A stretch of DNA of 64,000 bases from positions 227,312 through 291,311 of the forward strand of contig JAUJYZ010001274.1 in assembly GCA_033675265.1 (NCBI GenBank), given 5' to 3'. Every line of letters begins with the position of its first letter. Within the stretch, counting starts at the first letter, position 1. Shown here piece by piece: positions 2,346-59,380 of the stretch. A program made the translations under genes and the position numbers. The DNA comes from Actinostola sp. cb2023 (lineage: Eukaryota > Cnidaria > Anthozoa > Actiniaria > Actinostolidae). The notes beneath the pieces were generated by a model, which ran no database searches, was not told the origin of the DNA, and saw only the letters and a list, made by a program, of their open reading frames with translations.

Positions 2346-2371
2346 CTTCTTTTGTTTTTCAGCTCCAGCGT

Positions 2372-5819: not shown

Positions 5820-6020
5820 AAGAATCAGTGCTCTGGTACGACGGGAATATTCGCTGCGCAATGAGTGTGATCGTGAGGAATTGTCCCTGTAAGATATGGA
5901 TGATCTGGTAGGACGGGAGTATTTGCCGCGCAATGAGTGTGATCGTGAGAAATTGTCGCTGTAAGATATGGATGATCTGGTAGGACGGGAGTATTCGCTG
6001 CGCAATGAGTGTGATCGTGA
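5820..6020. repeat. 72-bp tandem repeat, about 2.8 copies
   Basis: The motif CTGGTA(G/C)GACGGGA recurs at about 5831, 5903 and 5975, exactly 72 bp apart (24 codons), so frames stay open through the array. No start or splice context supports a gene. Confidence 0.85.
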
Positions 6021-6021
6021 G

Positions 6022-6150
6022 GAAAGAAAAACCGTTACAACGCGCTGGATCCGTGCGCGAGCGATTCGTCAGTTCTATGTGTCTGTACTCTTATTGACAA
6101 TGGCTCAGAGCCAATCAGATTGCGAGATTTAGCTCTGTTATTGTAAAATA
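6022..6150. repeat. Dispersed GGATCCGTGCGCGAGCG repeat (also 7905-8035)
   Basis: About 130 bp running from GAAAGAAAAACCGTT to the motif AGAGCCAATCAGATTGCGAG is found again at 7905-8035 with small differences. Confidence 0.7.
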
Positions 6151-6193
6151 GTTATTTTGTTCAATTACCGTATTGATTTTCTTTTAGCTTTAA

Positions 6194-10401: not shown

Positions 10402-11034
<633 letters not shown>

Positions 11035-16251: not shown

Positions 16252-16255
16252 GTAG

Positions 16256-16797
16256 ACAGATGGTCTCATCTCACAGGAATGAAGCTGAACTCTATCGACG
16301 CTCAAGTCGATATTCTGATAGGAAATGATATCCCTAAAGGTCACGAACCACAGGAAGTCCGCCCAAGTAGCGCAGAGGGACCCTACGCAGTTAGAACTCT
16401 ACTTGGATGGACTATTAATGGACCGCTTGGGAGAGCTGCAGATGTGAGTCTCGACGAACAATTTGAAAGATATTGTAAGATGGAATTCAACGATACAAGT
16501 TCAGACGTCGGGAAAACAATGTCACAAGAAGATAAGAGAGCCATAGACATTATGGAAAAGTCAGCGCGACTCAGCGATGGTCATTACGAGGCAGCAATGC
16601 CTTGGAGGAGCTTTCCTTCTGATCTTCCCAACAACAGAATATTCGCAGAACAACGACTAGTTTTGCGAAAGAAAAGACTAAGGAACGATTCAAGTCTCCA
16701 CGGAAAGTACAAGACTTTCATGCAATATCTATTGAACAAGGGCTACGCTCGGAAGGTCCCGAAGGATCAACTATGTGCAAACGGAGAGCCTGGGTAG
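16256..16797 (+). pseudogene. BEL/Pao pol, linker to N-terminal RT
   Basis: It resumes pol after the foldback element with DRWSHLTGMKL, DILIGNDIP and a segment typical of BEL pol (GPYAVRTLLGWTINGP). A TAG at 16795-16797 follows a frameshift. The RT body continues in another frame from about 16800. Confidence 0.85.
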
Positions 16798-16815
16798 TAC
16801 TTACCCCATCACCCG

Positions 16816-17985
16816 GTGGTAAACCCACACAAAGATAAAGTCTTTGATTGTTCAGCCAAATCGAATGGTACTTCCTTGAACCAACAGTTGATGCAAGGCC
16901 CTGATCTCACAAATTCATTGACGGGTGTCCTGACCAGATTTAGAAAGGAAAGTGTGGCCATGATGTCGGACATCGAGTCAATGTTCTATCAAGTACATGC
17001 CCGACCTGATGACAGCAAGTTTCTATGTTACTTGTGGTGGCCGGACGGAGACTTCAATTGTGATCCTGAAGAATTTCAGATGCTAGTGCACCTCTTCGGT
17101 GGGATTTCCTCACCGAGTTGTGGGAGCTACTCTCTACAAAGGACAGCTGATGACAACGCAGCGAAATACGACAAAGAAACAATATGCACGATACGAAACA
17201 ATGTCTACGTGGATGACTGCCTAAAGTCTGTAAAAACCGAAGACAAAGCGCTTCAACTCGTCGATGAACTCAGAGAACTCTTGAAGAAAGGAGGATTGAA
17301 CCTCACGAAATGGGTATCTAACTCACGCAAAGTTATCAAGGCCATCCCGGAAACACAGAGAGCATGTTCAGTAACATACCTGGACCTCGACCACTTACCT
17401 ATCGAAAGAGCTCTAGGCCTCCAATGGGACGTCGAAAGAGATGTCTTCAAATTCAAAACGACAATAACGAGTAAGCCTGCTACAAGAAGAGATATTCTCA
17501 GCATGACGAGCTCCATCTACGACCCACTTGGATTCATCTCTCCTTACGTTCTTCCAGCGAAGTTCATCTTACAAGACTTGTGTAGACAAGGATTCGGTTG
17601 GGATGACCCAGTGCCTGAAAGGGAACAAGAACGCTGGAACCAGTGGCTGGAGGAACTACCCAAACTGAAGGAGCTTGGAGTCAACCGTTGCCTGAAACCC
17701 AAGTCGGTTGGAGAAGTTGTGTCAGCTGAACTTCACAACTTCTCGGATGCATTGCAACTCGGATACGGTGCCGTATCATACCTCAGACTCGTCAACGGCG
17801 AAGCCATTGTACACTGTGCATTCATAATGAGCAAATCGCTATTAACACCGATAAAACAAGTCACGATCCCACGATTAGAGTTGGCTGCCGCAGTTGTTGC
17901 CACGAGACTGAGCTCGATGATAATACAAGAAATTGACATGATATACATAACGTATTCTGTTGAACAGACAGTACGTGTGTATTAG
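16816..17985 (+). pseudogene. BEL/Pao reverse transcriptase and RNase H
   Basis: The 389-codon frame holds the RT palm: [10 protein letters not shown] (first catalytic Asp region), FGGISSPSC, and the catalytic box YVDDCLKS. Then come WVSNSRKV, the connection segment [15 protein letters not shown], and an RNase H-like part ([14 protein letters not shown], then [10 protein letters not shown]). The RT motifs look intact. The frame is lost at about 17950, inside RNase H, and coding continues in the frame that begins at 17960. Confidence 0.9.
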
Positions 17986-19303
17986 GCTACATCCTAAATC
18001 AAGATATAAACTATTAAAACCTTCGTTGCGAACAGACTATCTACGATACACGAAGTATCACGACCAGAACAGTCAATGGAGATATGTGAATACCACACTT
18101 AACCCAACCGACGACGCGTCGAGAGGTTTGTCGGTCTCCTCGATGCTCGAAAACAGAAGATGGATCGAGGGTCCTGCGTGGCTACGTGAAACAAGTGATA
18201 AGTGGCCAGAGCAACCCAACGTCAAATTAGAAGTCCAAAGCGACGACCTCGAGGTAAAATGCGAAGCCAAGTCGTTCAACGTTTCAGCGAAAGACCACGA
18301 TGATGTCATCAACCGCGTTCTTCATCACTACTCATCGTTGTATCGTCTAAAGAGATGTATCGCATTCATACTGCGTTACCGTTTAAAACTCCTAACACGG
18401 TGTCAAGACAAAACTAAGCCGTTAGTTTCACAAGGAAACCTAGAACCTCTGTGCGTAGAAGAGATGAATTCCGCAGAGGCAGAAATACTGAAGTATATAC
18501 AAAGACAAAGTTTCCATGATGAACTATCAAACTTGAGAGAAAGCAACTTACAGATACATGACAAACAAGCTTCGAAATCCGTAAGAAGAATGAGTTCTGT
18601 TTATAAACTTAATCCCACGTTGACAGATGGTCTGCTACGCGTTGGTGGACGTCTGACACGCGCACCAATACAAGATGCAGCAAGATACCCTATATTATTA
18701 CCGAAGAATCACCACGTTGTTGATCTTATTGTTAAGCATTATCATGAACTGTCTGAACATTCTGGCATAGAGCACATACTTTCACTGATCAGAGAGAAAT
18801 TCTGGCCTGTTAAAGGCAGAGCAACAATGAAGAAAGTATTGAACATATTCTTCGATTGTAGAAGACGACAAGCACCCTTAGAAGATCAGAAGATGGCAGA
18901 TTTGCCTGTTGACAGAATGACGCCGGGCAGACCCCCTTTCACTTCTGTAGGTGTGGACTGCTTCGGACCCTTCCTAGTCAAAATAGGAAGAACCGAAGTC
19001 AAGCGATACGGAATTGTATTCACCTGCTTAGCGATCAGAGCGATACATATCGAGGTGCTTCACAGCCTGGACACAACTTCATTTGTAAATTCATTCCGAC
19101 GCTTCATAGCTCGAAGAGGAATGCCTGAATTGGTAAGATCGGATAATGGCACCAATTTCGTTGCAGGAAACGAAACCATCAACGAGTGGAACGAACGACA
19201 AGTTCATGAATTCATGATTCAACGAAATATTAGATGGGTTTTCAACCCACCCACAGCGTCCCAACATGAAGGAACATGGGACCGTTGCATCCGAACGATC
19301 TAA
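17960..19303 (+). pseudogene. BEL/Pao integrase, C-terminally truncated
   Basis: After the RNase H tail (NPTDDASRGL) come a zinc-binding region (HYHELSEHSG ... FFDCRRRQA) and the integrase core with Asp in GVDCFGPF, Asp in RSDNGTNF and the Glu of HEGTWDR. The first Cys of the usual CxxC pair appears to be Phe, so zinc binding is doubtful. The frame ends in TAA at 19301-19303, before the C-terminal domain usual for BEL integrases. Confidence 0.85.
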
Positions 19304-19450: not shown

Positions 19451-20215
19451 CCGAGGTAGCTCAGTGGTAAAGCATCCAACTAGAGTACGTAGGGTCATGG
19501 GTTCATTCATTTCCCACTGTGACCTTAGCTCACCATTATAGTTCCCAGTAGCTCAGTCGTAGAGCTTTCGACTAGAATACGGAAGGTCATGGGCTCATTC
19601 ATGATCCACTATGAACTTAGCTCACCATTATAGTTCCCAGTAGCTCAGTGCTAGAGCATCCGACTAGAATACGGAAGGCCATTGGTTCATTCATGACCCA
19701 CTATGACCTAAGCTACAACATTAGACTACCCAGTAGCTCAGTGGTAGAGCATCCCACTAGAATACGGAACTTCATGGGTTCATTCATGACCCACTATGAC
19801 CTTAGCTCACCATTTGAGTACCCAGTAGCTCAGTGTTAGAGCATCCGACCGGATAATACGGAAAGTCATGGGTTCATTCATGGCCCACTATGACCTTAGC
19901 TCACCATTAGCGTTTCCAGTAGCTCCGTGGTAGAGCTTCCGACTAGAATACGTAAGTTCATGGGTTCATTCATGACCCAGTAGCTCAATGGTAGAGCATC
20001 CGACTAGAGTACGTAAGGTCATGGGTTTATTCATGACCCACTGTGACCTTAGCTCACCATTAGACTACGCAGTAGCTCAGTGGTAGAGCATCCGACTAGA
20101 GTACGTAAGGTCATGTGTTCATTCATGACCCACTGTGACCTTAGGTCACCATTAGAGTTCCCAGTAGCTCAGTGGTAGAGCATCCGACTAGAATACGGAA
20201 GGTCATGGTGTGACG
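19451..20215 (+). repeat. Tandem tRNA-like repeat, about 9 units of 92 bp
   Basis: Each unit has TAGCTCAGTGGTAGAGC, which matches an A box and forms a D-arm. A 7-base anticodon-like loop CTAGAAT or CTAGAGT follows (AGA in the anticodon place) in a TCCG/CGGA stem. Then comes GGTCATGGGTTCATTCATGACC, in which GGTTCATTC is a degraded B box. The 3' part pairs as GGTCATG/CATGACC and does not form a normal T-arm. No 7-bp acceptor stem is found, so these are tRNA-derived repeats and not tRNA genes. One unit (19977) is short. Confidence 0.7.
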
Positions 20216-20651: not shown

Positions 20652-20780
20652 CTCTTTTCAAACCGTAGTTCAGTGGTAGAGCATCCAACTAGAATACGGA
20701 AGATCATGGGTTCATTCATGACCCACTGTGACCTTAGCTCACCATTAGAGTTCCCAGTAGCTCAGTGGTAGAGCATCCGA
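20652..20780 (+). repeat. Two further tRNA-like units
   Basis: Same unit as 19451-20215. The second breaks off at about 20780, where Penelope-like coding sequence starts. Confidence 0.65.
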
Positions 20781-21143: not shown

Positions 21144-21785
21144 TCAACTTTCTTGTATTAATCTGTTTGGGGGCCTCGACACCCGTGTGGACCTGCGAAG
21201 CATTGAGGTATCCTCACTTCTGCCAAGATCTAACAAAGAATCGGTGGGCTCTGGATCAGGAGAAGGGAGTGAACTTGGGTCGTCCTCATCTATAATATCT
21301 GTTTTCCTTGCATCACTGAGTGGTATGACTGGTCCACTGTAGAGCAGCTTCTTGAAATGAGAAGAGTTCCGGGTCACTTTCCGATCAGCATTTTCTGCGG
21401 TTAGCATACTGTGATTCTTCTCAGTTACTGTTAGTGGCGCTGGGTGATAGGGTGTCGATAGCTTCTCACGCTTTGGTTGCTTCACTAAGACAGTGTCTCC
21501 AACTTGAAGGTCACATTCTTTAATGGCTCTCTTGGACTCAGCTTGACTTTTGATCTTGAGTTTTTGGAGAGCATCCTTTTCACGCATTTCTGCAGGGTCA
21601 TAACTCTCACTGCACGGCATGATAACCTGGTTGGGTAGCTTAACTCTAATGGATCTGCCAAAGAGTGCTGTAGCCGGCGCAACACCAGTAGTGCAATGGG
21701 GGGTTGCACGATAGTTACGAAGGAACTGATACATATCCTGTTTCCAATGGGTCGAGGTGCGTAGCATCTTACCAAACGTTTTCAT
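21144..21785 (-). pseudogene. Ty3/gypsy integrase C-terminal part, frameshifted
   Basis: It continues the integrase after a frameshift at about 21775. It contains NYRATPHCTTGVAPA, ALFGRSIRVKLP and a basic stretch (DTVLVKQPKREKLSTPYHPA) that is typical of the chromatin-facing C-terminus of gypsy integrases. It ends about 165 bp before the 3' LTR. Confidence 0.85.
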
Positions 21786-24303
21786 AAAAACGCTCTACTT
21801 CGCCATTAGCTTCGGGCCATAGGGGCGACACCTTGCGATGCTTGAAACCAATACACTCAGCAAACTGCGCAAACTCATGTCCATTGAATGGGGGCCGATT
21901 ATCAGACTTTACGACTTGAGGTACGCCATAGGCAGCAAAGATGCGGTCGAGCTTTGGGATGGCAGCTTTAGCAGAGGTTGAGTGTACAATCTCTACCTCA
22001 GGGAACCTTGAATAGTCGTCGATAATTACCAGGACATAGTGCCCTGCCACTTCACAAAAGTCTATGCTCACCTGCTCCCAGGGACCACTGGGCAGTGGAG
22101 TCATATTTATAGGCTCACGAGACGGCTTGGGCGTGGCAATTTGACAGGGAACACACTGCTTCACCATGGAATCAGTAAGGCTGTCCATCTTTGGGAACCA
22201 GACCTTTGAACGCAACAAGCTGCGCGTCTTCACCAGACCTTGGTGACCCTCATGAGCCAACTGCACCACACGTCTCTGTAGAGCATCAGGAATGACAATC
22301 CGACGACCACGAAGTATCAACTTACCATCTACTGATGTGAGCTCACTGCGAATGTTGGCAAAGATCTGAAGAGCAGTTGCATCACCATCTTCTTTCTTTA
22401 CGTCGTCCCACTGACCAGTTGAGATGAGGCGCATCACTGTTTGTAAGGTAGCATCACGTGTGGTGGCTTCAATGATCTCTTGACTGCTTAGAGCTTTAAG
22501 TGCAGCCTGTGACACAACAAAGTTAACATACTGTTCTGCAGATTTAGCAATAAGATCACACCGTGTACCTCCCTGAAGATGTCTTGAAATATAATCAGCT
22601 GGATTCAAATCACCTCTTGAGTATATGACTTTAAAATCGAAAGACTGTAGCTTGAGACGCCAGTTGTCAATCCTGACTGAGGCTTGCGAAGTAGGACTGT
22701 TGAAAATTGGCACCAGGGGCTTGTGATCAGTTATCACGTCAAAGTGGCTTCCAAGTAGATACATCCTGAAGTGATGACATCCCCAGGCAATCGCCCAAGC
22801 CTCACGCTCAATTTGAGAATATCTCCTTTCAACACTAGAGAGGTCTTTGCTGGCATAGGAGATGAATTTGCCATCTTGGGTGAATACAGCACCAATACCA
22901 ATAGGACTAGAATCCACGAGCAGGACTGATTTCTTGCTAGGATCAAAGTAAGCCATGACTTCATCAGAGGTGAGACTGCTCTTGAGGCGTTCCAACGCTG
23001 CTTGATGGACATCTTCCCACTCAAACTTCACTCCTTTGTGTGTGAGGTCACGTAGGGGTGCAACAATATCTGCATAGTCACGTATGAAACGAGACACATA
23101 ATTGGTCATGCCCAGCAGACTACGTACGTCACTCGCTGAGGTAGGTGATTCTGCATTCTTGATTGCGTCCACCTTGGCAGGATCCGGTGACATCCCTTGG
23201 CTACTAAAGACCATTCCAAAGAACTCAATACGAGGCATGTAAAACTTGCACTTCTCCTTCTTCAGAGTCAGATTCAACTCCTGTAGACGATTCAGCACTG
23301 CGTGTAGGGTTTTGTCATGTCCCTCTGTGTTCACGCCATAGATAATGATATCATCACTGATGTTTTTGACATTGGGGATGTCATGAATTGCAGTTGCAAT
23401 GACATCTTGAAACTTCTCAGCAGCTGCGTTGACACCAAGACTGAGGCGTTTGTATCGGTACAAACCTAGGTGAGTAGAAAAGGTTGTGATGTGCCTTGAG
23501 TCAGGGTGCAGCACCAGTTGATGATATAGCCTTATTATATCTTGTTCAAGCAGGGACTCCACACATGCTTCAAGGCTCTTTCTGTGATGAAATGGAATTC
23601 TTCTATGCGGCTGATTAACAGGCCTTAAACTATCATCAATATGCAATTCGACTTCTACATCCTTCATCTTTCCAAGGCCACAGAATAAGCTAGGGTACTT
23701 ACAGAAAACATTTTTGTCGACTGTCACAGCATTTGCAATTTGTAGTATTCCCAGCTTGGTGGCAGCTGTGTATCCAAGAAGAGACGTTTTGTCATTCACA
23801 ACAAGAAACTCAGAGTTCATTGAGCTGCATTTGGATTCGATCAAAGCTGTGAATTTTCCAAGGACTGGCAGTGGATCAGATGAATTAAAGGCATACACTT
23901 TAGTATCACAAGAGTCTAGTTTCACATTAAGCATTTTGTGCATGTCGGGACTAATTATGTTCACACTGGCTCCTGAATCCACTAAGAACTTGCAAACAAC
24001 TCCATTGACCTTCAATGAAACAAAAGGAGCACTGACCTTTAAAGTAGATTCCACCATGAAGGAATATTCATCATCTGAACTAGATGACTGTCGTTCATGT
24101 GGTATGGGTTGGTGTGTTGGTGGTGTTGGTTCTTTAGGTGACTCGTTGTTCAATTGGTTTACAGCCTTTGAAGACTCGCCTTTGGGTTGCATCCGTCTCC
24201 TGTTCCATCTCTGAGGTGCTTGACCTCGACCTGAAGCTTGATCCTGTTGAGAACTTCTACAATACTTCGCGTAGTGGCCATATTTCTCTGGCAAGAATTG
24301 CAC
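21769..24303 (-). pseudogene. Ty3/gypsy pol (protease, RT, RNase H, integrase), RT deleted
   Basis: The 844-codon frame begins inside the second gag zinc knuckle (GHYAKYCRS). It holds a protease with DSGASVNIIS, an RT with ISDDIIIYG, an RNase H (REAWAIAWG; ITDHKPL) and an integrase with an HHCC finger (HEGHQG ... CVPCQ), IDFCEVAG, KSDNRPPF and PEANGEVERF. In the RT, LLEQDIIR runs straight into LYHQLVLHPDSRH. The usual segment of about 60-70 residues with the first catalytic Asp is missing in frame, near 23530. The integrase SDNG Gly is Arg. The enzyme cannot be active. Confidence 0.9.
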
Positions 24304-24962
24304 TTTCGACTTTGAGCAGGGCAGCCAGTGTTGGAATCATGCGGCCAGCTTTCACCACAGTTGAAGCATGTTCCTTTCTTTCGAGGAGGTTTGGAATGCG
24401 TCTGAGGAAACACGGCATTAGCACACCCAGAGGATTCAATTTCCTTTGCTTGGGTTTCGGAAATTTCCAGCGCACGTGCTTCGTCCAGTAAAGCTTGCAG
24501 ATTCATCCTCGAGTCTTTTAGAGCTTTTCGACGAAGACGTTGAGATGAGCAGGACTGTATTATTTGAGACTTGACTTCCTTGTCGACGTCAGTAAATTCA
24601 CACGTAGCAGCCAGCTGTCGCAATCGAGAATGATAGGAGTTCATATTTTCACCAGTATCTTGCTTTGCCTGTCGAAACATGTAGATTTCATATTCCACAT
24701 TCTTCTTGGGGTCAAAATACGCATTGAGTTTTGCTTTAGCCGTCTCGAAATCCTCACCAGTATCGGTCAAGGTATCAAAGACTTCAGACACTTCTTCTCC
24801 AGCATAATATAGTAGAAGAGCTCTCTGTCGCTTTTCATCACTAATATCAGCGGCAATGAACAGATTTTCCAGACGTTTTATCCACTTACGCCATCTTTGT
24901 GCAATCGCTCCATCGGCATGTATGTCGAAAGGGTCGAAGTTTGGAAGCGCTGAGGCCATCAC
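24159..24962 (-). pseudogene. Ty3/gypsy gag, frameshifted in the zinc-knuckle region
   Basis: The protein starts MMASALPNFDPFDI with a typical gag capsid segment (WRKWIKRLENLFIAADI; DPKKNVEYEIYMFRQA). Cys clusters follow (CFNCGESW; KCNSC). The second knuckle starts in this frame but its GHYAKYC half lies in the pol frame, so a small indel at about 24297 disrupts a gag-pol fusion. I read this as decay; programmed frameshifting is possible but the position inside a knuckle argues against it. Confidence 0.85.
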
Positions 24963-25030
24963 AAAGAGCCAAAATTATGTCACACAGACTGTAATCCCTA
25001 TTTGAACAATTTACCGATCCTCGTCGCCAA

Positions 25031-31839: not shown

Positions 31840-32123
31840 TAGCTAATTGCATAGTCGTTGTCGGGTTGAAAATCATGAAAGCTATGACCAAAAGGAATTC
31901 TGGGAAATTAATACTCTCAAATAACACCGTCAAATGAACTACATTTTTTTTGCAGACTTGTAGGATCTTAGTTAAATATATAGCTCATGTATCTTAAAAA
32001 CTACGAGAACATTGAATATATCTGTATGTAATGCGGGTTATGAACTGATTTCCCATCCATCCTTGCGGTCTCAGCTTCTATGATTTATGATTTTCAATCC
32101 GACAACGATTATGCAATTAGCTA
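31840..32123. mobile_element. MITE with TAGCTAATTGCAT termini (284 bp)
   Basis: TAGCTAATTGCATAGTCGTT on the left is mirrored at 32085-32123. It directly abuts the preceding MITE. Together they split a sequence that is continuous elsewhere as GTTTGGATATCGGATGAACC. Confidence 0.8.
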
Positions 32124-35100
32124 TATCGGATGAACCACTCTTTGTTGAGTTTGATATCTTACATAATTAGACATTCATAATTGATCATTTCTTTTTACCA
32201 TTTGTGTTCCAGGCTTCCATCGAAATCCCTCCAAAATAAGAAGAACGATTATTGTGTTCATCCTAATGGTGGGAGGCCACGAGAGAACGTATACCTTGTT
32301 TTTTGGAATACTTGCAACAAAATCGTACTGATTTTAGACTTCTTCAAAATTCGTAAGTAAATAGAGTGGAACATCTATATAACGGCCACCCTCGGGACTT
32401 TGCATATTGGCCTCTTAATAGAGGTCCGTTATAGATGGCCGCTGTCCTTGACAAAAGACGCATTTACAACAGGGTTAGCCTCGATTCAGAGAACAGTCCG
32501 TGATATACAAAAATGTTTCTATTGTTTCATGTCAACATTTTTTCGCGTTCTTGATGATATTTGTGAATAATTTACACTGACTCGAAGCTAACCCTGAACA
32601 AATGCGACTGTGGTCAATAAGTACAGCGGTTTTTACAGCGATATCTGTTAACTCGAAAAAGGGCTATTAATCCTACCAATGCCGGTTCTATTGATTCCGA
32701 GAACGACTGACGATAAGCTAGCTATTTGTTTAGCCTTAGATTCGTTTTCGTATGAGTAGGAAACCTACGACACGGAGTTCCGGACACGATACGGAATCGA
32801 AGACATCTATTCAACCAATTACAGCGCGCTAAATTATCGCTCTTCCAATCACATTGCACGGCCACCGCACGGCCACCGCACGGCATATCACTGAAAACAC
32901 CGAGAAGCTGTTTTGATAAAACGATATGCGATACAGTCGGGTTTTTTAACCAACTTCGTTGTGTTTGGATATCGGCTGAACCACTTTTTCGAGTGTCTGA
33001 AATATAATAATCATCATCATGTTACCCTCTTGAAATAAAGTCTTCGTCATCTACGTCTTCTTTTGTTTTTCAGCTCCAGCGTAAAATACAGCATGGCATC
33101 TGTACATGGGACTGATGATTACTAGAGTATTAGGGGTTAATATGTATTAGTTTATTAAGGGATAGTCATGACAACTAATAAAGCACGCAGTACATGAGAC
33201 TGACAATTACTAGAGTATTAGGGGTTAATATGTATTAGTTTATTAAGGGATAGTCATGTCAACTAATAAAGCACGCAGTACATGGGACTGACAATTACTA
33301 GAGTATTAGGGGTTAATATGTATTAGTTTATTAAGAAATAGTCATGGCAACTAATAAAGCACGCAGTACATGAGACTGACAATTACTAGAGTATTAGGGG
33401 TTAATATGTATTAGTTTATTAAGGGATAGTCATGGAAACTAATACAGCATGCAGTACATGGGACTGACAATTACTAGAGTATTAGGGGTTAATATGTATT
33501 AGTTTACTAAGGAATAGTCATGGCAACTAATACAGCACGCAGTACATGGGACTGATGATTACTAGAGTATTAGGAGTTAATATGTATTAGTTTATTAAGG
33601 GATAGTCATGGCAACTAATACAGCACGCAGTACATGGGACTGACAATTACTAGAGTATTAGGGGTTAATATGTATTAGTTTATAATTAAGGGATAGTCAT
33701 GACAACTAATACAGCACGCAGTACATGGGACTGATGATTACTAGATTATTAGGAGTTAATATGTATTAGTTTATTAAGGGATAGTCATGGAAACTAATAC
33801 AGCACGCAGTACATGGGACTGACAATTACTAGAGTATTAGCGGTTAACATGTATTAGTTTATTAAGGGATAGCCATGTCAACTAATACAGCACGCAATAC
33901 ACGGGACTGACAATTACTAGAGTGTTAGGGGTTAAAATGCATTAGTTTATTAAGGGATAGCCATGTCAACTAATACAGCACGCAATACATGGGACTGACA
34001 ATTACTAGAGTATTAGGGGTTAACATGTATTAGTGTATTAAGGGATAGCCATGCCAACTAATACAGCACGCAGTACATGGGACTGACAATTACTAGAGTA
34101 TTAGGGGTTAACATGTATTAGTTTATTAAGGGATAGCCATGTCAACTAATACAGCACGCAGTACATGGGACTGACAATTACTAGAGTATTAGGGGTTAAT
34201 ATGTATTAGTTTATTAAGGGATAGTCATGGCAACTAATACAGCACGCAGTACATGGGACTGACAATTACTAGAGTATTAGGTGTTAATATGTATTAGTTT
34301 ATGAAGGAATTGACATGGCAACTAATGCAGTACGCAGTACATGGGACTGATGATTACTAGAGTATTAGGGGTTAATATGTATTAGTTTATTAAGGGATAG
34401 TCATGGCAACTAATACAGCACGCATTACATGGTACTGACAATTACTAGAGTATTAGGGGTTAATATGTATTAGTTTATTAAGGAATTGACATGGCAACTA
34501 ATGCAGTACGCAGTACATGGGACTGACAAATACTAGAGTATTAGGGGTTAATATGTATTAGTTTATTAAGGGATAGTCATGGCAACTATTACAGCACGCA
34601 GTACATGGTACTGACATTTACTAGAGTATTCGGGGTTAATATGTATTAGTTTATTAAGAGATAGTCATGGAAACTAATACAACATGCAGTACATGGGACT
34701 GACAATTACTAGAGTATTAGGGGTTAATATGTATTAGTTTACTAAGGGATAGTCATGGCAACTAATACAGCACGCAGTACATGGGACTGATGATTACTAG
34801 AGTATTAGGGGTTAATATGTATTAGTTTATAATTAAGGGATAGTCATGACAACTAATACAGCACGCAGTACATGGGACTGATGATTACTAGAGTATTAGG
34901 AGTTAATATGTATTAGTTTATTAAGGGATAGTCATGGAAACTAATACAGCACGCAGTACATGGGACTGACAATTACTAGAGTATTAGCGGTTAACATGTA
35001 TTAGTTTATTAAGGGATAGTCATGGCAACTAATATGGGACTGACAATTATTAGAGTATTAGGGGTTAATATGTATTAGTTTATAATTAAGGGATAGTCAT

Positions 35101-38100
35101 GACAACTAATACAGCACGCAGTACATGGGACTGATGATTACTAGAGTATTAGGAGTTAATATGTATTAGTTTATTAAGGGATAGTCATGGAAACTAATAC
35201 AGCACGCAGTACATGGGACTGACAATTACTAGAGTATTAGCGGTTAACATGTATTAGTTTATTAAGGGATAGTCATGGCAACTAATACAGCACGCAGTAC
35301 ATGGGACTGACAATTACTAGAGTATTAGAGGTTAACATGTATTAGTTTATTAAGGGATAGCCATGTCAACTAATACAGGCACGCAGTACATGGTACTGAC
35401 AATTACTAGAGTATTAGGGGTTAATATGTATTAGTTTATTAAGGAATTGACATGGCAACTAATGCAGTACGCAGTACATGGGAGTGACAAATACTAGAGT
35501 ATTAGGGGTTAATATGTATTAGTTTATTAAGGGATAGTCATGGCAACTATTACAGCACGCAGTACATGGGACTGACAATTACTAGAGTATTAGGGGTTAA
35601 TATGTATTAGTTTATTAAGGGACAGTCATGGCAACTAATACAGCACGCTGTAAATGGGACTGACATTTACTAGAGTATTCGGGGTTAATATGTATTAGTT
35701 TATTAAGAGATAGTCATGGAAACTAATACAGCATGCAGTACATGGGACTGACAATTACTAGAGTATTAGGGGTTAATATGTATTAGTTTACTAAGGGATA
35801 GTCATGGCAACTAATACAGCACGCAGTACATGGGACTGATGATTACTAGAGTATTAGGAGTTAATATGTATTAGTTTATTAAGGGATAGTCATGGCAACT
35901 AATACAGCACGCAGTACATGGGACTGACAATTACTAGAGTATTAGGGGTTAATATGTATTAGTTTATAATTAAGGGATAGTCATGACAACTAATACAGCA
36001 CGCAGTACATGGGACTGATGATTACTAGAGTATTAGGAGTTAATATGTATTAGTTTATTAAGGGATAGTCATGGAAACTAATACAGCACGCAGTACATGG
36101 GACTGACAATTACTAGAGTATTAGCGGTTAACATGTATTAGTTTATTAAGGGATAGTCATGGCAACTAATATGGGACTGACAATTACTAGAGTATTAGGG
36201 GTTAATATGTATTAGTTTATAATTAAGGGATAGTCATGACAACTAATACAGCACGCTGTAAATGGGACTGATGATTACTAGAGTATTAGGAGTTAATATG
36301 TATTAGTTTATTAAGGGATAGTCATGGAAACTAATACAGCACGCAGTACATGGGACTGACAATTACTAGAGTATTAGCGGTTAACATGTATTAGTTTATT
36401 AAGGGATAGTCATGGCAACTAATACAGCACGCAGTACATGGGAGTGACAATTACTAGAGTATTAGCGGTTAATATGTATTAGTTTATTAAGGAATTGACA
36501 TGGCAACTAATGCAGTACGCAGTACATGGGAGTGACAAATACTAGAGTATTAGGGGTTAATATGTATTAGTTTATTAAGGGATAGTCATGGCAACTATTA
36601 CAGCACGCAGTACATGGGACTGACATTTACTAGAGTATTCGGGGTTAATATGTATTAGTTTATTAAGAGATAGTCATGGAAACTAATACAGCATGCAGTA
36701 CATGGGACTGACAATTACTAGAGTATTAGGGGTTAATATGTATTAGTTTACTAAGGGATAGTCATGGCAACTAATACAGCACGCAGTACATGGGACTGAT
36801 GATTACTAGAGTATTAGGAGTTAATATGTATTAGTTTATTAAGGGATAGTCATGGCAACTAATACAGCACGCAGTACATGGGACTGACAATTACTAGAGT
36901 ATTAGGGGTTGATATGTATTAGTTTATAATTAAGGGATAGTCATGACAACTAATACAGCACGCAGTACATGGGACTGATGATTACTAGAGTATTAGGAGT
37001 TAATATGTATTAGTTTATTAAGGGATAGTCATGGAAACTAATACAGCACGCAGTACATGGGACTGACAATTACTGGAGTATTAGCGGTTAACATGTATTA
37101 GTTTATTAAGGGATAGTCATGGCAACTAATATGGGACTGACACATTACTAGAGTATTAGGGGTTAATATGTATTAGTTTATAATTAAGGGATAGTCATGA
37201 CAACTAATACAGCACGCTGTAAATGGGACTGATGATTACTAGAGTATTAGGAGTTAATATGTATTAGTTTATTAAGGGATAGTCATGGAAACTAATACAG
37301 CACGCAGTACATGGGACTGACAATTACTAGAGTATTAGCGGTTAACATGTATTAGTTTATTAAGGGATAGTCATGGCAACTAATACAGCACGCAGTACAT
37401 GGGACTGACAATTACTAGAGTATTAGAGGTTAACATGTATTAGTTTATTAAGGGATAGCCATGTCAACTAATACAGGCACGCAGTACATGGGACTGACAA
37501 TTACTAGAGTATTAGGGGTTAACATGCATTAGTTTATTAAGGGATAGCCATGTCAACTAATACAGCACGCAGTACATGGGACTGACAATTACTAGAGTAT
37601 TAGGGGTTAATATGTATTAGTTTATTAAGGAATTGACATGGCAACTAATGCAGTACGCAGTATATGGGACTGACAATTACTAGAGTATTAGGGATTAATA
37701 TGTATTAGTTTATTAAGGGATAGTCATGACAACTAATACAGCACGCAGTACATGGGACTGATGATTACTAGAGTATTAGGAGTTAATATGTATTAGTTTA
37801 TTAAGGGATAGTCATGGAAACTAATACAGCACGCAGTACATGGGACTGACAATTACTAGAGTATTAGCGGTTAACATGTATTAGTTTATTAAGGGATAGT
37901 CATGGCAACTAATATGGGACTGACAATTACTAGAGTATTAGGGGTTAATATGTATTAGTTTATAATTAAGGGATAGTCATGACAACTAATACAGCACGCT
38001 GTAAATGGGACTGATGATTACTAGAGTATTAGGAGTTAATATGTATTAGTTTATTAAGGGATAGTCATGGAAACTAATACAGCACGCAGTACATGGGACT

Positions 38101-39030
38101 GACAATTACTAGAGTATTAGCGGTTAACATGTATTAGTTTATTAAGGGATAGTCATGGCAACTAATACAGCACGCAGTACATGGGACTGACAATTACTAG
38201 AGTATTAGAGGTTAACATGTATTAGTTTATTAAGGGATAGCCATGTCAACTAATACAGGCACGCAGTACATGGGACTGACAATTACTAGAGTATTAGGGG
38301 TTAACATGCATTAGTTTATTAAGGGATAGCCATGTCAACTAATACAGCACGCAGTACATGGGACTGACAATTACTAGAGTATTAGGGGTTAATATGTATT
38401 AGTTTATTAAGGAATTGACATGGCAACTAATGCAGTACGCAGTATATGGGACTGACAATTACTAGAGTATTAGGGATTAATATGTATTAGTTTATTAAGG
38501 GATAGTCATGGCAACTAATACAGCACGCAGTACATGGGACTGACATTTACTAGAGTATTCGGGGTTAATATGTATTAGTTTATTAAGAGATAGTCATGGA
38601 AACTAATACAGCATGCAGTACATGGGACTGACAATTACTAGAGTATTAGGGGTTAATATGTATTAGTTTACTAAGGGATAGTCATGGCAACTAATACAGC
38701 ACGCAGTACATGGGACTGATGATTACTAGAGTATTAGGAGTTAATATGTATTAGTTTATTAAGGGATAGTCATGGCAAACTAATACAGCACGCAGTACAT
38801 GGGACTGACAATTACTAGAGTATTAGGGGTTAATATGTATTAGTTTATAATTAAGGGATAGTCATGACAACTAATACAGCACGCAGTACATGGGACTGAT
38901 GATTACTAGAGTATTAGGAGTTAATATGTATTAGTTTATTAAGGAATAGTCATGGAAACTAATACAGCACGCAGTACATGGGACTGACAATTACTAGAGT
39001 ATAGGCGGTTAACATGTATTAGTTTATTAA

Positions 39031-39477
39031 GAGGATATTTATTTGAACATCGCGTAATATCCGCGAAAAGCGCCAAAAACGAGCGCTTTTGAACAGTTTG
39101 ACTTTCGATTTTCGCTTTGGATTAACACTCTAATTTTATTTTAACTAAGCACAAACTATTAAAAACAAAGTAAACTGTCTGTTTTAAAGCTGTTTTAGCG
39201 TTGTACAAAGCCATTTTCCTGCTTTTTGTTTCAAATTTAAGGTAATTCAGGGGAAAAACATCAGCAATAATAGTAAATATACAGATCTAGCCCATGTGGA
39301 CAGTTTTCAAGTCAAGTTTTCACTTTGGATTAACACTCTAATTTCACTTTTACCGGTCAAAAAACCATCCCAAATAGCTTGAACTCTTTGCTAAAGCAGT
39401 TTTAGCCTTGTACAAAACGTATTCTCCATGCTATTGGTTTTTGGCGCTCAATACGCGCGTTCGTAAAAAATCTCCTC
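39031..39477. mobile_element. TTAA-flanked MITE, GAGGA family, copy 2
   Basis: TTAA lies at 39027-39030 and 39478-39481, ends as in 2430-2874, orientation reversed. It is inserted in the TTATTAAGGG site of a satellite unit. Confidence 0.9.
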
Positions 39478-42400
39478 TTAAGGGATAGTCATGGCAACTA
39501 ATATGGGACTGACAATTACTAGAGTATTAGGGGTTAATATGTATTAGTTTTTTAAGGGATAGTCATGGCAACTAATACAGCACGCAGTACATGGGACTGA
39601 CAATTACTAGAGTATTAGGGGTTAACATGTATTAGTTTATTAAGGGATAGCCATGTCAACTAATACAGGCACGCAGTACATGGGACTGACAATTACTAGA
39701 GTATTAGGGGTTAACATGCATTAGTTTATTAAGGGATAGCCATGTCAACTAATACAGCACGCAATACATGGGACTGACAATTACTAGAGTGTTAGGGGTT
39801 AACATGCATAAGTTTATTAAGGGATAGTCATGTCAACTAATACAGCACGCAGTACATGGGACTGACAATTACTAGAGTATTAAGGGTTAACATGTATTAG
39901 TGTATTAAGGGATAGCCATGTCAACTAATACAGCACGCAGTACATGGGACTGACAATTACTAGAGTATTAGGGGTTAATATGTATTAGTTTATTAAGGGA
40001 TAGCCATGTCAACTAATACAGCACGCAGTACATGGGACTGACAATTACTAGAGTATTAGGGGTTAACATGCATTAGTTTATTAAGGGAAGCCATGTCAAC
40101 TAATACAGCACGCAGTACATGGGACTGACAATTACTAGAGTATTAGGGGTTAACATGTATTAGTTTATTAAGGGATAGCCATGTCAACTAATACAGCACG
40201 CAGTACATGGGACTGACAATTACTAGAGTATTAGGGGTTAACATGTATTAGTTTATTAAGGGATAGCCATGTCAACTAATACAGCACGCAGTACATGGGA
40301 CTGACAATTACTAGAGTATTAGGGGTTAACATGCATTAGTTTATTAGGGATGTCCATGTCAACTAATACAGCACGCAGTACATGGGACTGACAATTACTA
40401 GAGTATTAGGGGTTAACATGTATTAGTTTATTAAGGGATAGCCATGTCAACTAATACAGCACGCAGTACATGGGACTGACAATTACTAGAGTATTAGGGG
40501 TTAACATGCATTAGTTTATTAAGGGATAGCCATGTCAACTAATACAGCACGCAGTACATGGGACTGACAATTACTAGAGTATTAGGAGTTAATATGTATT
40601 AGTTTATTAAGGGATAGTCATGGAAACTAATACAGCACGCAGTACATGGGACTGACAATTACTAGAGTATTAGGGGTTAATATGTATTAGTTTATTAAGG
40701 GATTGACATGGCAACTAATGCAGTACGCAGTACATGGGAGTGACAAATACTAGAGTATTAGGGTTAATATGTATTAGTTTATTAAGGGATAGTCATGGCA
40801 ACTATTACAGCACGCAGTACATGGGACTGACATTTACTAGAGTATTCGGGGTTAATATGTATTAGTTTATTAAGGGATAGTCATGACAACTAATACAGCA
40901 CGCAGTACATGGGACTGACAATTACTAGAGTATTAGGGGTTAATATGTATTAGTTTACTAAGGGATAGTCATGGCAACTAATACAGCACGCAGTACATGG
41001 GACTGATGATTACTAGAGTATTAGGAGTTAATATGTATTAGTTTATTAAGGGATAGTCATGGCAACTAATACAGCACGCAGTACATGGGACTGACAATTA
41101 CTAGAGTATTAGGGGTTAATATGTATTAGTTTATAATTAAGGGATAGTCATGACAACTAATACAGCACGCAGTACATGGGACTGATGATTACTAGAGTAT
41201 TAGGAGTTAATATGTATTAGTTTATTAAGGGATAGTCATGGAAACTAATACAGCACGCAGTACATGGGACTGACAATTACTAGAGTATTAGCGGTTAACA
41301 TGTATTAGTTTATTAAGGGATAGTCATGGCAACTAATATGGGACTGACAATTACTAGAGTATTAGGGGTTAATATGTATTAGTTTATAATTAAGGGATAG
41401 TCATGACAACTAATACAGCACGCTGTAAATGGGACTGATGATTACTAGAGTATTAGGAGTTAATATGTATTAGTTTATTAAGGGATAGTCATGGAAACTA
41501 ATACAGCACGCAGTACATGGGACTGACAATTACTAGAGTATTAGCGGTTAATATGTATTAGTTTATTAAAGGATAGTCATGGCAACTAATACAGCACGCA
41601 GTACATGGGACTGACAATTACTAGAGTATTAGAGGTTAATATGTATTAGTTTATTAAGGGATAGCCATGGCAACTAATACAGCACGCAGTACATGGGACT
41701 GACAATTACTAGAGTATTAGGGGTTAATATGTATTAGTTTATTAAGGGATAGTCATGGCAACTAATACAGCACGCAGTACATGGGACTGACAATTACTAG
41801 AGTATTAGGGGTTAATATGTATTAGTTTATTAAGGGATAGACATGGCAACTAATACAGTACGCAGTATATGGGACTGACAATTACTAGAGTATTAGGGAT
41901 TAATATGTATTAGTTTATTAAGGGATAGTCATGACAACTAATACAGCACGCAGTACATGGGACTGATGATTACTAGAGTATTAGGAGTTAATATGTATTA
42001 GTTTATTAAGGGATAGTCATGGAAACTAATACAGCACGCAGTACATGGGACTGACAATTACTAGAGTATTAGCGGTTAACATGTATTAGTTTATTAAGGG
42101 ATAGTCATGGCAACTAATATGGGACTAACAATTACTAGAGTATTAGGGGTTAATATGTATTAGTTTATAATTAAGGGATAGTCATGACAACTAATACAGC
42201 ACGCTGTAAATGGGACTGATGATTACTAGAGTATTAGGAGTTAATATGTATTAGTTTATTAAGGGATAGTCATGGAAACTAATACAGCACGCAGTACATG
42301 GGACTGACAATTACTAGAGTATTAGCGGTTAACATGTATTAGTTTATTAAGGGATAGTCATGGCAACTAATACAGCACGCAGTACATGGGACTGACAATT

Positions 42401-43234
42401 ACTAGAGTATTAGAGGTTAACATGTATTAGTTTATTAAGGGATAGCCATGTCAACTAATACAGGCACGCAGTACATGGGACTGACAATTACTAGAGTATT
42501 AGGGGTTAACATGCATTAGTTTATTAAGGGATAGCCATGTCAACTAATACAGCACGCAGTACATGGGACTGACAATTACTAGAGTATTAGGGGTTAATAT
42601 GTATTAGTTTATTAAGGAATTGACATGGCAACTAATGCAGTACGCAGTATATGGGACTGACAATTACTAGAGTATTAGGGATTAATATGTATTAGTTTAT
42701 TAAGGGATAGTCATGGCAACTAATACAGCACGCAGTACATGGGACTGACATTTACTAGAGTATTCGGGGTTAATATGTATTAGTTTATTAAGAGATAGTC
42801 ATGGAAACTAATACAGCATGCAGTACATGGGACTGACAATTACTAGAGTATTAGGGGTTAATATGTATTAGTTTACTAAGGGATAGTCATGGCAACTAAT
42901 ACAGCACGCAGTACATGGGACTGATGATTACTAGAGTATTAGGAGTTAATATGTATTAGTTTATTAAGGGATAGTCATGGCAACTAATACAGCACGCAGT
43001 ACATGGGACTGACAATTACTAGAGTATTAGGGGTTAATATGTATTAGTTTATAATTAAGGGATAGTCATGACAACTAATACAGCACGCAGTACATGGGAC
43101 TGATGATTACTAGAGTATTAGGAGTTAATATGTATTAGTTTATTAAGGAATAGTCATGGAAACTAATACAGCACGCAGTACATGGGACTGACAATTACTA
43201 GAGTATAGGCGGTTAACATGTATTAGTTTATTAA

Positions 43235-43679
43235 GAGGATATTTATTGGAACATCGCGTAATATCCGCGAAAAGCGCCAAAAACGAGCGCTTTTGAACAG
43301 TTTGACTTTCGATTTTCGCTTTGGATTAACACTCTAATTTTATTTTAACTAAGCACAAACTATTAAAAACAAAGTAAACTGTCTGTTTAAAGCTGTTTTA
43401 GCGTTGTACAAAGCCATTTTCCTGCTTTTTGTTTCAAATTTAAGGTAATTCAGGGGGAAAACATCAGCAATAATAGTAAATATACAGATCTAGCCCATGT
43501 GGACAGTTTTCAAGTCAAGTTTACACTTTGGATTAACACTCTAATTTCACTTTTACCGGTCAAAAACCATCCCAAATAGCTTGAACTCTTTGCTAAAGCA
43601 GTTTTAGCCTTGTACAAAACGTATTCTCCATGCTATTGGTTTTTGGCGCTCAATACGCGCGTTCGTAAAAAATCTCCTC
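43235..43679. mobile_element. TTAA-flanked MITE, GAGGA family, copy 3
   Basis: Same satellite site, orientation and flanking unit variants as copy 2, 4204 bp further on. It arose by duplication of the surrounding array segment and not by a new insertion. Confidence 0.9.
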
Positions 43680-45777
43680 TTAAGGGATAGTCATGGCAAC
43701 TAATATGGGACTGACAATTACTAGAGTATTAGGGGTTAATATGTATTAGTTTTTTTTAAGGGATAGTCATGGCAACTAATACAGCACGCAGTACATGGGA
43801 CTGACAATTACTAGAGTATTAGGGGTTAACATGTATTAGTTTATTAAGGGATAGCCATGTCAACTAATACAGGCACGCAGTACATGGGACTGACAATTAC
43901 TAGAGTATTAGGGGTTAACATGCATTAGTTTATTAAGGGATAGCCATGTCAACTAATACAGCACGCAATACATGGGACTGACAATTACTAGAGTGTTAGG
44001 GGTTAACATGCATTAGTTTATTAAGGGATAGTCATGTCAACTAATACAGCACGCAGTACATGGGACTGACAATTACTAGAGTATTAAGGGTTAACATGTA
44101 TTAGTGTATTAAGGGATAGCCATGTCAACTAATACAGCACGCAGTACATGGGACTGACAATTACTAGAGTATTAGGGGTTAACATGTATTAGTTTATTAA
44201 GGGATAGCCATGTCAACTAATACAGCACGCAGTACATGGGACTGACAATTACTAGAGTATTAGGGGTTAACATGCATTAGTTTATTAAGGGATGGCCATG
44301 TCAACTAATACAGCACGCAGTACATGGGACTGACAATTACTAGAGTATTAGGGGTTAACATGTATTAGTTTATTAAGGGATAGCCATGTCAACTAATACA
44401 GCACGCAGTACATGGGACTGACAATTACTAGAGTATTAGGGGTTAACATGTATTAGTTTATTAAGGGATAGCCATGTCAACTAATACAGCACGCAGTACA
44501 TGGGACTGACAATTACTAGAGTATTAGGGGTTAACATGCATTAGTTTATAGGGATGTCCATGTCAACTAATACAGCACGCAGTACATGGGACTGACAATT
44601 ACTAGAGTATTAGGGGTTAACATGTATTAGTTTATTAAGGGATAGCCATGTCAACTAATACAGGCACGCAGTACATGGGACTGACAATTACTAGAGTATT
44701 AGGGGTTAACATGCATTAGTTTATTAAGGGATAGCCATGTCAACTAATACAGCACGCAATACATGGGACTGACAATTACTAGAGTGTTAGGGGTTAACAT
44801 GCATTAGTTTATTAAGGGATAGTCATGTCAACTAATACAGCACGCAGTACATGGGACTGACAATTACTAGAGTATTAAGGGTTAACATGTATTAGTGTAT
44901 TAAGGGATAGCCATGTCAACTAATACAGCACGCAGTACATGGGACTGACAATTACTAGAGTATTAGGGGTTAACATGTATTAGTTTATTAAGGGATAGCC
45001 ATGTCAACTAATACAGCACGCAGTACATGGGACTGACAATTACTAGAGTATTAGGGGTTAACATGTATTAGTTTATTAAGGGATAGCCATGTCAACTAAT
45101 ACAGCACGCAGTACATGGGACTGACAATTACTAGAGTATTAGGGGTTAATATGTATTAGTTTATTAAGGGATAGCCATGTCAACTAATACAGCACGCAGT
45201 ACATGGGACTGACAATTACTAGAGTATTAGGGGTTAACATGTATTAGTTTATTAAGGGATAGCCATGTCAACTAATACAGCACGCAGTACATGGGACTGA
45301 CAATTACTAGAGTATTAGGGGTTAACAATTAGTTTACTAGGGATGTCCATGTCAACTAATACAGCACGCAGTACATGGGACTGACAATTACTAGAGTATT
45401 AGGGGTTAACATGTATTAGTTTATTAAGGGATAGCCATGTCAACTAATACAGCACGCAGTACATGGGACTGACAATTACTAGAGTATTAGGGGTTAACAT
45501 GTATTAGTTTATTAAGGGATAGCCATGTCAACTAATACAGCACGCAGTACATGGGACTGACAATTACTAGAGTATTAGGGGTTAACATGCATTAGTTTAT
45601 AGGGATGTCCATGTCAACTAATACAGCACGCAGTACATGGGACTGACAATTACTAGAGTATTAGGGGTTAACATGTATTAGTTTATTAAGGGATAGCCAT
45701 GTCAACTAATACAGCACGCAGTACATGGGACCGACAATTACTAGAGTATTAGGGGTTAATATGTATTAGTTTATTAA

Positions 45778-46542
45778 AGTGCTAATCATATTCATTTTGA
45801 AATCACTAGTAAATCCTGCAATCTGATTGGCTAAAAATGGTGCGATTAAATCATTAATTGCACTATTTTGGATCATTAATTGCACCAATTTTTTTTTTTT
45901 TTTTTAATTTTCGCACAGAAACTCTAATTTTATTAAATTCAAACGATTCTTCATAAAAAGTAATTTGTAATTTAGAATGAAAGAGTTGTATTTTAGGCAT
46001 CAAAATTATTCTTATTATTGCAACTTACCACCTAAGATTTCAAAATGAATATGATTAATAGGTAATTGAACTTCGTGTCGTGCAATTTAGGTCTGAAATC
46101 ATACTCGTGATAACAAATTGCACTCCCGCTACGCGGTCGTGCAATTTTGTAATCACTCGTATGATTTCAGACCAAATTGCACTCCACTCAGTTCTATTAC
46201 CATTACATATCAGGGTTTTGGGATTCTTTTGAAAATCGATTACATATAACGTGAATAGTGGGATGGTTCAGTATTTTGTGATTTGAGCTTCGTATTTGCG
46301 AGTTATGAAGATTTGAAATCATGATATACTAATTAGGTGACGTCAATGCAGGCATTTGCCGTAACTTATTTTAACTTTTTCAAGTAGCACTCTTTTCTAA
46401 AATAGAAATAAAAGTTTAACATCATTTATATAAGTTGTAGAATGACTTTTGCGAAGCTCAAATCACAAAATACTGAACCATCCCACTATTCACTTCATAT
46501 ACAATCGATTTTCAAAAGAAACCCAAAACCCTGATATGCACT
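45778..46542. mobile_element. TTAA-flanked element, AGTGC family (765 bp)
   Basis: TTAA lies at 45774-45777 and 46543-46546, ends AGTGC...GCACT. Its right part is an inverted repeat (46205-46300 against 46450-46537) built on CAGTATTTTGTGATTTGAGC. It interrupts the last satellite unit. Confidence 0.75.
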
Positions 46543-46936
46543 TTAAGGGATAGTCATGTCAACTAATACAGATGTATTAAAACAAATGTTTTGGGTGTCC
46601 AGAGTGTTTGTTGTTATTATTTGTGTTTTCATGTTGTATATAATTTATAGTCTTAATGGTTTGCTCACTACGTTATTCCAAACACGAACATTATCGTGTC
46701 CATACGACTGACTTAGTCACGTACGGGGAGCATGAACGAGAACATTATTTATCGAAGTTAGTCATGATGTGAAACATGGCGACATATCAACCAATCGAGA
46801 AAATGGCAACATAAGCACATGCATAAAGTTGTACGCAAGCGCAAAGTGAATTTTCGTTATCATTTCCGGCCTCTCGACTTCTGACTAACAATTAATAATT
46901 AAACTAATTATTGTGTTTATGAGTGTCGTGTATATA

Positions 46937-47463
46937 CAGTCGATTCAGAAAACGTTGTCGGTGACCGGCCTGACGACTACGCGACTAGACCGAACGGGAG
47001 TATGAATAGAAATCACTGAATCAATAAATTATTCGTTCTGGAAATTTCTCATCATATTGGAGAGTAATCGAATGAATGTATGCCTTCGTGTTTTACGAAA
47101 GGAGAATAAGAGTCGTTATGACTCATTTTTCGTCAAGGACGTGCCGTGCTTTGAGAACGTTCAGTTGTTGAAATACCATATTTTTAAACGCTGCCCTGAA
47201 GAACTTTCGCCAGCTACAAACAGTCACCTCCCAATGGGTTACTTTGGGGAGACGAACAAGAGGTTTTCTATCTCTACTGTGGAATCTAAACCACTCGCCA
47301 GCGTAGGTCGTCACTCATTTTATTGTTCACTGTAAGCTCGAGGCATGGCTAATCAGACATGCAGCTACCCGCTTCCCGCTTCGGTGATTTCTTATTATTA
47401 CCGTAGTATTTCTAGTCGCGTAGTCGCGAGGCCGGTCACCGACAACGTTTTCTGAATCGACTG
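46937..47463. mobile_element. TA-flanked element, CAGTCGATTCAG family (527 bp)
   Basis: Inverted termini of about 40 bp start CAGTCGATTCAGAAAACGTT and include GTCGGTGACCGGCC. TA lies on both sides. It carries the open frame 47057-47335. Confidence 0.88.
47057..47335 (+). pseudogene. Open frame inside the CAGTCGATTCAG element (92 codons)
   Basis: The frame holds CLRVLRKENKSRYDSFFV, LKYHIFKRCPEEL and SHLPMGYFGETNKRFSI. This looks like real protein sequence, possibly the N-terminal fragment of a transposon-borne protein with a ubiquitin-like fold; that reading is a guess from pattern. It runs out about 130 bp before the right terminus. It is likely an internal-deletion relic of a once longer element. 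Confidence 0.4.
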
Positions 47464-47539
47464 TATGTACGGTGGCTCCAAAGGGACATTCGAGATATAA
47501 TATATATACAATATACGAGATACATCTTTCCAAAAGTAC

Positions 47540-47785
47540 GAGATACAGCAATTACAAATCCCGAGATAGCAAAACTTGGAAATAGCAAAACTTGGAGATA
47601 GCAAAACTTGGAGATAGCAAAACTTGGAGATAGCAAAACTTGGAGATAGCAAAACTTGGAGATAGCAAAACTTCGACATACATGTAGCAAAACTTCGAGA
47701 TAGCAAAACTATTTCCACATTCATGTAGCAAACTTCGCGCGTAAAATAGCAATACTTCGAGATAGCAAAACTTCGAGATAGCAGC
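47540..47785. repeat. 16-bp tandem repeat (GAGATAGCAAAACTTG)
   Basis: About a dozen copies, the central ones perfect, the outer ones degraded (AACTTCGAGATAGC). It is bounded on the right by the TIR element at 47784. Confidence 0.95.
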
Positions 47786-59051: not shown

Positions 59052-59380
59052 GTAGCTGTAGCTGTAGCTGTAGCTGTAGCTGTAGCTGTAGCTGTAGCTG
59101 TAGCTGTAGCTGTAGCTGTAGCTGTGCTGTAGCTGTAGCTGTAGCTGTAGCTGTAGCTGTAGCTGTAGCTGTAGCTGTAGCTGTAGCTGTAGCTGTAGCT
59201 GTAGCTGTAGCTGTAGCTGTAGCTGTAGCTGTAGCTGTAGCTGTAGCTGTAGCTGTAGCTGTAGCTGTAGCTGTAGCTGTAGCTGTAGCTGTAGCTGTAG
59301 CTGTAGCTGTAGCTGTAGCTGTAGCTGTAGCTGTAGCTGTAGCTGTAGCTGTAGCTGTAGCTGTAGCTGTAGCTGTAGCT
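59052..59380. repeat. (TAGCTG)n hexanucleotide repeat, about 55 copies
   Basis: Nearly perfect, with one break near 59125. Six is a multiple of three, so minus-strand frames stay open and yield spurious Ala-Thr and Ser-Tyr peptides. Confidence 0.99.

Follow-up and report, generated by a model that had tools for sequence, protein, structure and literature searches.

The 88-bp tandem array identified here as copy B, within a 64,000-nucleotide stretch of DNA from the sea anemone Actinostola sp. cb2023 (the window, C1058:227312-291311), is genuine and represents a local satellite of a kind already known. Taken as a whole, the history that we consider reasonably probable is that of a satellite in five duplicated loci, born at the short motif AATACAG and already an array before the duplication, with the one-unit copy A contracted and copy B lengthened in part by a recent internal duplication. 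That copy A is the contraction of an array, and not its ancestor, is likely, with a polarity that we infer. No function beyond satellite behaviour is indicated for the 88-bp array.

The 88-bp array of copy B

Tandem Repeats Finder, applied to the window, gave a period of 88 over 33102-45777 (+), and wrap-around segmentation resolved copy B into 135 units, 64 of them distinct, with the last one split. An initial reading made from the sequence only had proposed an array of about 12.7 kb at 33100..45777 with about 130 units, and this array proved to be real. The 29-mer core of the unit, searched with up to three mismatches, was present in 134 of the 135 units, and the maximum in 100 shuffles was 0; the head-to-tail units are thus well above chance, as in satellites and minisatellites. 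A viral-contig pattern search returned no match.

In B, the array is preceded on its left by a flank at 32122-33101 (+). At 45777, which the sequence-only reading had taken as the end of the array, there is indeed an interruption but not a clean end, since unit 135 is cut there by a 765-bp TTAA-flanked insertion of unassigned strand (45778-46542, ends AGTGC...GCACT), resumes past it with the TTAA duplicate and the 3' remainder of the unit (46543-46571, +), and finishes at 46571 in AATACAG. The right flank starts at 46572 (46572-46937, +) and has four copies in the genome. The idea that the flanks are decayed outer units of a larger array was rejected because the similarity of the left flank to the unit was no better than random (in B, over 60 nt, 1539 of 3991 equal or above) and that of the right flank was marginal (over 100 nt, random stretches scored as high in 134 of 3981 cases for B and 849 of 3981 for A).

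The growth of copy B has left traces within the array. A stretch of 22 units plus an inserted element (37660-40027, +) recurs 43 units (4.2 kb) downstream (41865-44231, +), and these 2.4-kb internal copies differ at 6 of 2365 positions (0.25%). In the fourth step of the history that we propose, the 22-unit, 2.4-kb stretch was duplicated 43 units downstream with its inserted element included, a step that can be seen in the array itself. Since the flanks diverge between loci by 3-17% (L010-L011, 1/54 in the shortest piece; the locus labels are given below), part of the length of B is recent. With a mean distance of 6.3% between B units, the complete array is not young in comparison with the loci. 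Besides the 22-unit run at lag 43, runs of 4-7 units were found at lags such as 9, 11, 20, 52, and 54, and the array thus has a higher-order repeat structure.

The inserted element belongs to a MITE-like, TTAA-flanked type that is present three times in the window: as a 445-bp copy splitting the unit of copy A (2430-2874, +) and as two copies in the array (39031-39477, -, and 43235-43679, -, the second within the repeated stretch). The two array copies differ by 3 mismatches over 445 aligned positions, lie on the strand opposite to the copy in A, and are each 3.4-3.8% divergent from it. All three read TTAA-GAGGA...TCCTC-TTAA, that is, short terminal inverted repeats within a target duplication, and we take the element to be a putative piggyBac-type MITE. 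As the unit sequence has two TTAA sites, the three TTAA insertions (in A, in the array, and in the last unit) are readily accommodated.

Several other repeats were observed in the window. Tandem units of about 92 bp (GTAGCTCAGTGGTAGAGCA) lie at 19456-20208 and 20665-20780; they presumably resemble tRNA-derived sequence, and neither ARAGORN nor Rfam reported any match in the window. A 0.9-kb direct duplication, 99% identical, is located at 6883-7781 and 8218-9118. Retrotransposon frame fragments, with Pfam matches for part of them, lie at 16168-19303 (+) and 21144-24974 (-); Pao-type fragments are among them, and others are, by our assumption, of Gypsy type. For the Pao-type open frame at 16798-17985, the best two of 120 listed relatives were 94% and 93% identical, the 93% one being from the sea anemone Actinostola sp. 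Long simple repeats include (GTAGCT)55 at 59052-59380 and (CT)103 at 10405-10610.

Five loci in a segmental duplication

The genome search covered an assembly of 424,152,321 bases in 1594 contigs. The left flank joined to unit 1 found five loci, namely B, A, C1058:67738(-) (67.6-67.8 kb; L010, or L10), C1058:58036(+) (L009), and C1225:189534(-) (L011, or L11), and the right flank found four, all except that on C1225. The unit 29-mer with up to three mismatches occurred at 136 forward and 12 reverse places, and its reversed control at none. Outside stretches reading N, all 148 of the 148 core matches fall in the five loci: 135 in the window (1 in A, 134 in B), 1 in L009, 10 in L011, and 2 in L010. 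Copy B is therefore not a classical satellite of many or heterochromatic sites, with 148 matches confined to five loci of 424 Mb. Counted as units, B has 135, L011 about 15 (13 complete, one interrupted by an insertion of 1741 bp, and one truncated), L010 two, and L009 and A one each.

Such a count of units per locus had been proposed by the sequence-only reading, which held that copy A would have to be a contracted form if every other locus with its flanks carried a long array. The count was obtained in the form of the series 135, about 15, 2, 1, and 1; the remaining loci are mixed and not uniformly long. The array on C1225 was considered as an allele of B and rejected, since it is without the right flank of B and the stretch covered is not syntenic with B; the opposite side of this array reads N. 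On the side of L011 that holds the array, a comparison of 11.6 kb with C1058:219-291 kb yielded a single match of at least 100 bp, a repeat of 0.5 kb located at 232.5 kb and well away from B.

Copy A consists of one unit of 82 nt (whole span 2391-2921), made up of a 5' part that includes the target TTAA (2391-2429, +) and a 3' part (2879-2921, +), which are split by the 445-bp element followed by the TTAA duplicate at 2875-2878. The initial description of a single 88-bp unit at 2372-2935 was correct as to one unit between the same flanks, but the unit is 82 nt and most of the remainder is the element at 2430-2874; a clean one-unit locus is ruled out, as the element splits the unit. The flanks said to be shared by A and B were recovered: on the left, 2337-2390 and 33048-33101 differ at 2 of 54 positions, and on the right, from 2922 and 46572 onward, at 28 of 331.

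The array does lie inside a duplicated segment and is much longer in B than at the other loci, as had been suggested. The limits first given for the block, 835-3250 and 32124-46915, do delimit duplicated DNA, but the duplication is longer, reaching window position 30203 on the B side and passing the window start on the A side; this excess is explained by the nature of the block, a segmental duplication. On one contig, A and L010 form the two arms of an inverted segmental duplication that extends over about 11.5 kb or more, in which C1058 67.3-79.0 kb and 230.6-219.0 kb align as colinear pieces with 87-96% identity as far as the compared stretch reaches. B shares shorter pieces, the leftmost at C1058:257514 (window 30203). 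To the right of the unit, the homology among B, L009, and L010 passes an insertion in B and enters a 16-bp minisatellite at 47563-47783. That insertion (46938-47461), which has inverted ends (46930-46989 and 47411-47470), interrupts the right flank of B and is absent from L009 and L010.

A transposon as the carrier of the block was examined and rejected, as its apparent ends are insertion points or depend on the pair compared and the homology continues for kilobases outside them. Since the homology runs beyond the supposed ends to an extent that varies by pair, the block has no fixed element ends, and the constant transposon ends of transposon-carried repeats such as Tetris and HINE were not found. 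The 16-bp minisatellite, common to B, L009, and L010, spans about 2 kb in L010 (about 5230-7300 of the reverse complement) and is a second tandem repeat of locus-dependent length within the same duplication.

Proposed birth of the repeat and probable descent of the one-unit copy

The junctions between units record a short linker. In copy B, 98 of the 135 units match all 13 aligned columns of the junction AATACAGCACGCA, 7 of the 98 with one extra G, and the rest carry point changes in it or are shortened or cut. CACGCA is the only junction of L010 and occurs at 9 of the 14 junctions in L011. The sequence before unit 1 in the left flank reads AATACAG-CATGGCATCT in B, AATAAAG-CATGGCATCT in A, AATACAG-CACGGCATCA in L010, AATACAG-CACGACATCA in L011, and AATACAG-CATGACATCGATCG in L009, and the 10-bp flank linker itself was found in none of the 135 B units. 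In B, the proposed left birth repeat is the AATACAG at 33085-33091 (+), followed by CATGGCATCT and unit 1, and the proposed right birth repeat is the AATACAG closing the last unit at 46565-46571 (+). All four loci with a right flank (A, B, L009, and L010) have this motif where their single or last unit ends on the right; on the left, the flanks of four of the five loci contain it, and A has the variant AATAAAG.

The removal of GCAT from the flank decamer gives CACGCA; the junction is thus the left flank shortened by 4 bp, which suggests that the repeat was born when the DNA between two 7-bp copies of AATACAG was duplicated in tandem. The bounding repeats and the flank-derived linker (after the 4-bp deletion) correspond to the birth of minisatellites between short direct repeats, and this junction scar suggests how the repeat first arose. 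In an anchored alignment of linker to flank, which assumes the 4-bp deletion and concerns a match noticed after the fact, the scores were 9.5 for L010 and L011, 6 for B, and 4 for A and L009, values reached by 1, 27, and 235 of 19,976 random window positions, respectively; in a smaller sample of 3998, 9 positions reached the score of B and 52 that of A. The earlier proposal that the array derives from a once single-copy segment is supported.

In the first step of the proposed history, a single-copy segment of about 82 nt would have lain between two copies of AATACAG, the left copy about 10 bp away from it and the right copy at its very end. Slippage between these copies, or else unequal exchange or microhomology-mediated repair, would have led to a tandem duplication carrying 10 bp of left flank (of the CACGGCATCA type) as a linker between units, and a 4-bp deletion in the linker would have produced CACGCA and the 88-bp unit. 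In the second step, the multi-unit array with the CACGCA junction would predate the duplication of the surrounding region. In the third, recombination between units may have changed the length at each locus to the 135, about 15, 2, 1, and 1 units observed; copy A would be a product of contraction at this step, its unit later being split by the TTAA-targeting element.

The relationships among the loci bear on this order of events. In the left flank, 31 of 32 informative sites support the quartet A,L010/B,L011, with 1 against, and the right flank weakly supports A,L010/B,L009 with 2 sites to 1. Over five segments (1813 columns), the three-taxon sites were 144 for A with L010, 56 for A with B, and 43 for L010 with B, one segment being without the lead of the first pair (14, 11, and 13). 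A copy of a high-copy mobile element in A (1869-2337, +) has the same junctions in L010, with an internal deletion there, and is absent at the corresponding place in B, L009, and L011. A genome search for the element gave 968 candidate places, and the 40 that were scored contained 41 matches. As an insertion is directional, A and L010 form a clade with the root outside it; this root is taken from the shared insertion because an outgroup locus was not found among the genome copies. By the shared insertion, the 31:1 sites, and the inverted duplication, A and the two-unit locus L010 are sisters. An ancestral single copy would be expected outside all array-bearing loci, and A is instead the sister of L010 in a tree that is unrooted apart from the insertion.

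As this sister of A shares its CACGCA junction with B and C1225, the multi-unit state probably existed before A and L010 split. A single origin of the junction with loss in A is simpler, since the alternative is two births with an identical 4-bp-deleted junction; a single origin before the split entails loss in A, and also in L009 if L009 groups with B. The two L010 units differ at 5 of 82 sites, which is similar to the divergence of the A and L010 flanks (5.0-10.3%), and the L010 dimer is therefore not obviously younger than the split. The view of copy A as the surviving ancestral one-unit state is thus not supported, its sister having two units and the CACGCA junction, and the suggestion that before and after states lie about 30 kb apart fails as it was put, A being more likely the 'after' than the 'before'.

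The model of the sequence-only reading, in which A keeps the ancestral unit and B, and separately C1225 and L010, amplified it, is unlikely but has several points on its side. Any array must begin as a single copy, and A and L009 have single units without trace of the linker; the divergence of their units, 9 of 82 sites, is close to that of their right flanks (33/331), as expected of orthologues. The 5 departures of A from the B consensus, all of which are seen in B units too, fit contraction and equally fit ancestral states retained in B, and a FastTree analysis of the A and B units placed A among the array units in a midpoint-rooted tree of 82 sites that is uninformative on polarity. Two sites within 10 bp to the left of the unit join A with B, and L010 with L011, in conflict with the locus tree; one of them is a C-to-T change in CG context. 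The model nevertheless needs the same 6-bp junction to have arisen twice from a 10-bp flank, in L010 and in the B/C1225 lineage, or to have been transferred by conversion, and it is possible that a short conversion tract brought the linker into L010. It is also opposed by L009, the right flank of which is nearest to that of B (11/359 differ) and the unit of which has 4 departures from the B consensus, 3 of them found in at least two B units.

It is quite improbable that gene conversion or ectopic exchange carries pieces of array from one locus to another, such that unit number says little of descent. In favour of such exchange, unit 2 of L011 is identical to the B consensus, with 16 differences over 312 sites in the left flanks, one B unit is 1/82 from the first L010 unit with flanks differing by 3.7-17%, and the edge sites contradict the locus tree. 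However, choosing the closest among 134 units biases the comparison; on average, the two L010 units are 4.4 and 6.5 of 82 sites away from B units (5.4% and 7.9%), near the divergence of the right flank (20/363), and the 65C/70T states of A occur in both L010 units and in no L011 unit.

That the counts are artefacts of collapsed or duplicated repeats or haplotigs is very improbable, even with one assembly only, one side of L011 reading N, and C1058 ending where the window ends, because the internal copies of B carry scattered changes and an element, the neighbourhoods of A, L009, and L010 are distinct, and the array side of L011 shares with C1058:219-291 kb only the 0.5-kb repeat already described.

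Known systems and the copy-number ladder

Contraction of an array, as we prefer to read copy A, and the proposed birth both have counterparts in the literature. In the portion of PMC2820488 that bears on the subject, a segment bounded by short direct repeats is described as turning into a tandem repeat (Haber and Louis 1998; Taylor and Breden 2000, cited in PMC2820488). The present case would resemble that birth in its 7-bp AATACAG pair and flank-derived linker and differs from it in that a 4-bp deletion of the linker is assumed and the founding event is reconstructed. In yeast CUP1, according to the pertinent part of PMC4232551, one-copy and array strains coexist and recombination between units can reduce an array to a single copy, with contraction to one copy measured at 7.6e-7 per division. 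One-copy and array states side by side, with reduction to a single copy, are the likeness; unlike CUP1, a gene compared between strains, the units here are apparently non-coding and occupy paralogous loci of one genome.

Tetris TIR-220 in Drosophila virilis, in the section of PMC4079207 concerned with it, has short arrays in a dispersed sequence that became long and homogeneous, with up to 66 copies, and unequal exchange is proposed there for the change in copy number. In both cases, arrays of a dispersed sequence reach great length, whereas the carrier of Tetris is a foldback transposon and the carrier here is a segmental duplication of four to five copies. The oyster Cg_HINE, as far as the relevant passages of PMC7492417 describe it, comprises Helentron-carried satellite-like repeats in thousands of arrays, the longest of 29.3 monomers. 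Arrays of unequal length within common flanks are shared with the present case, which differs in having five loci, one of them with 135 units, and in that constant ends were not found.

We regard it as evenly balanced whether the unit numbers of the five loci (1, 1, 2, about 15, and 135) make up a natural copy-number ladder round one birth, on which a young satellite has reverted to a monomer at least twice. The remaining interest of the system lies in this ladder of unit numbers and in the junction scar. All unit copies detectable by pattern search of the assembly can be enumerated, the junction points to the short flanking repeats that would have begun the satellite, and, with sister loci of one and two units, birth could be told apart from loss among individuals and related anemones. 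If this history is true, a single unit with satellite flanks is no evidence of the ancestral state, and a one-unit paralogue should not be read as the ancestor.
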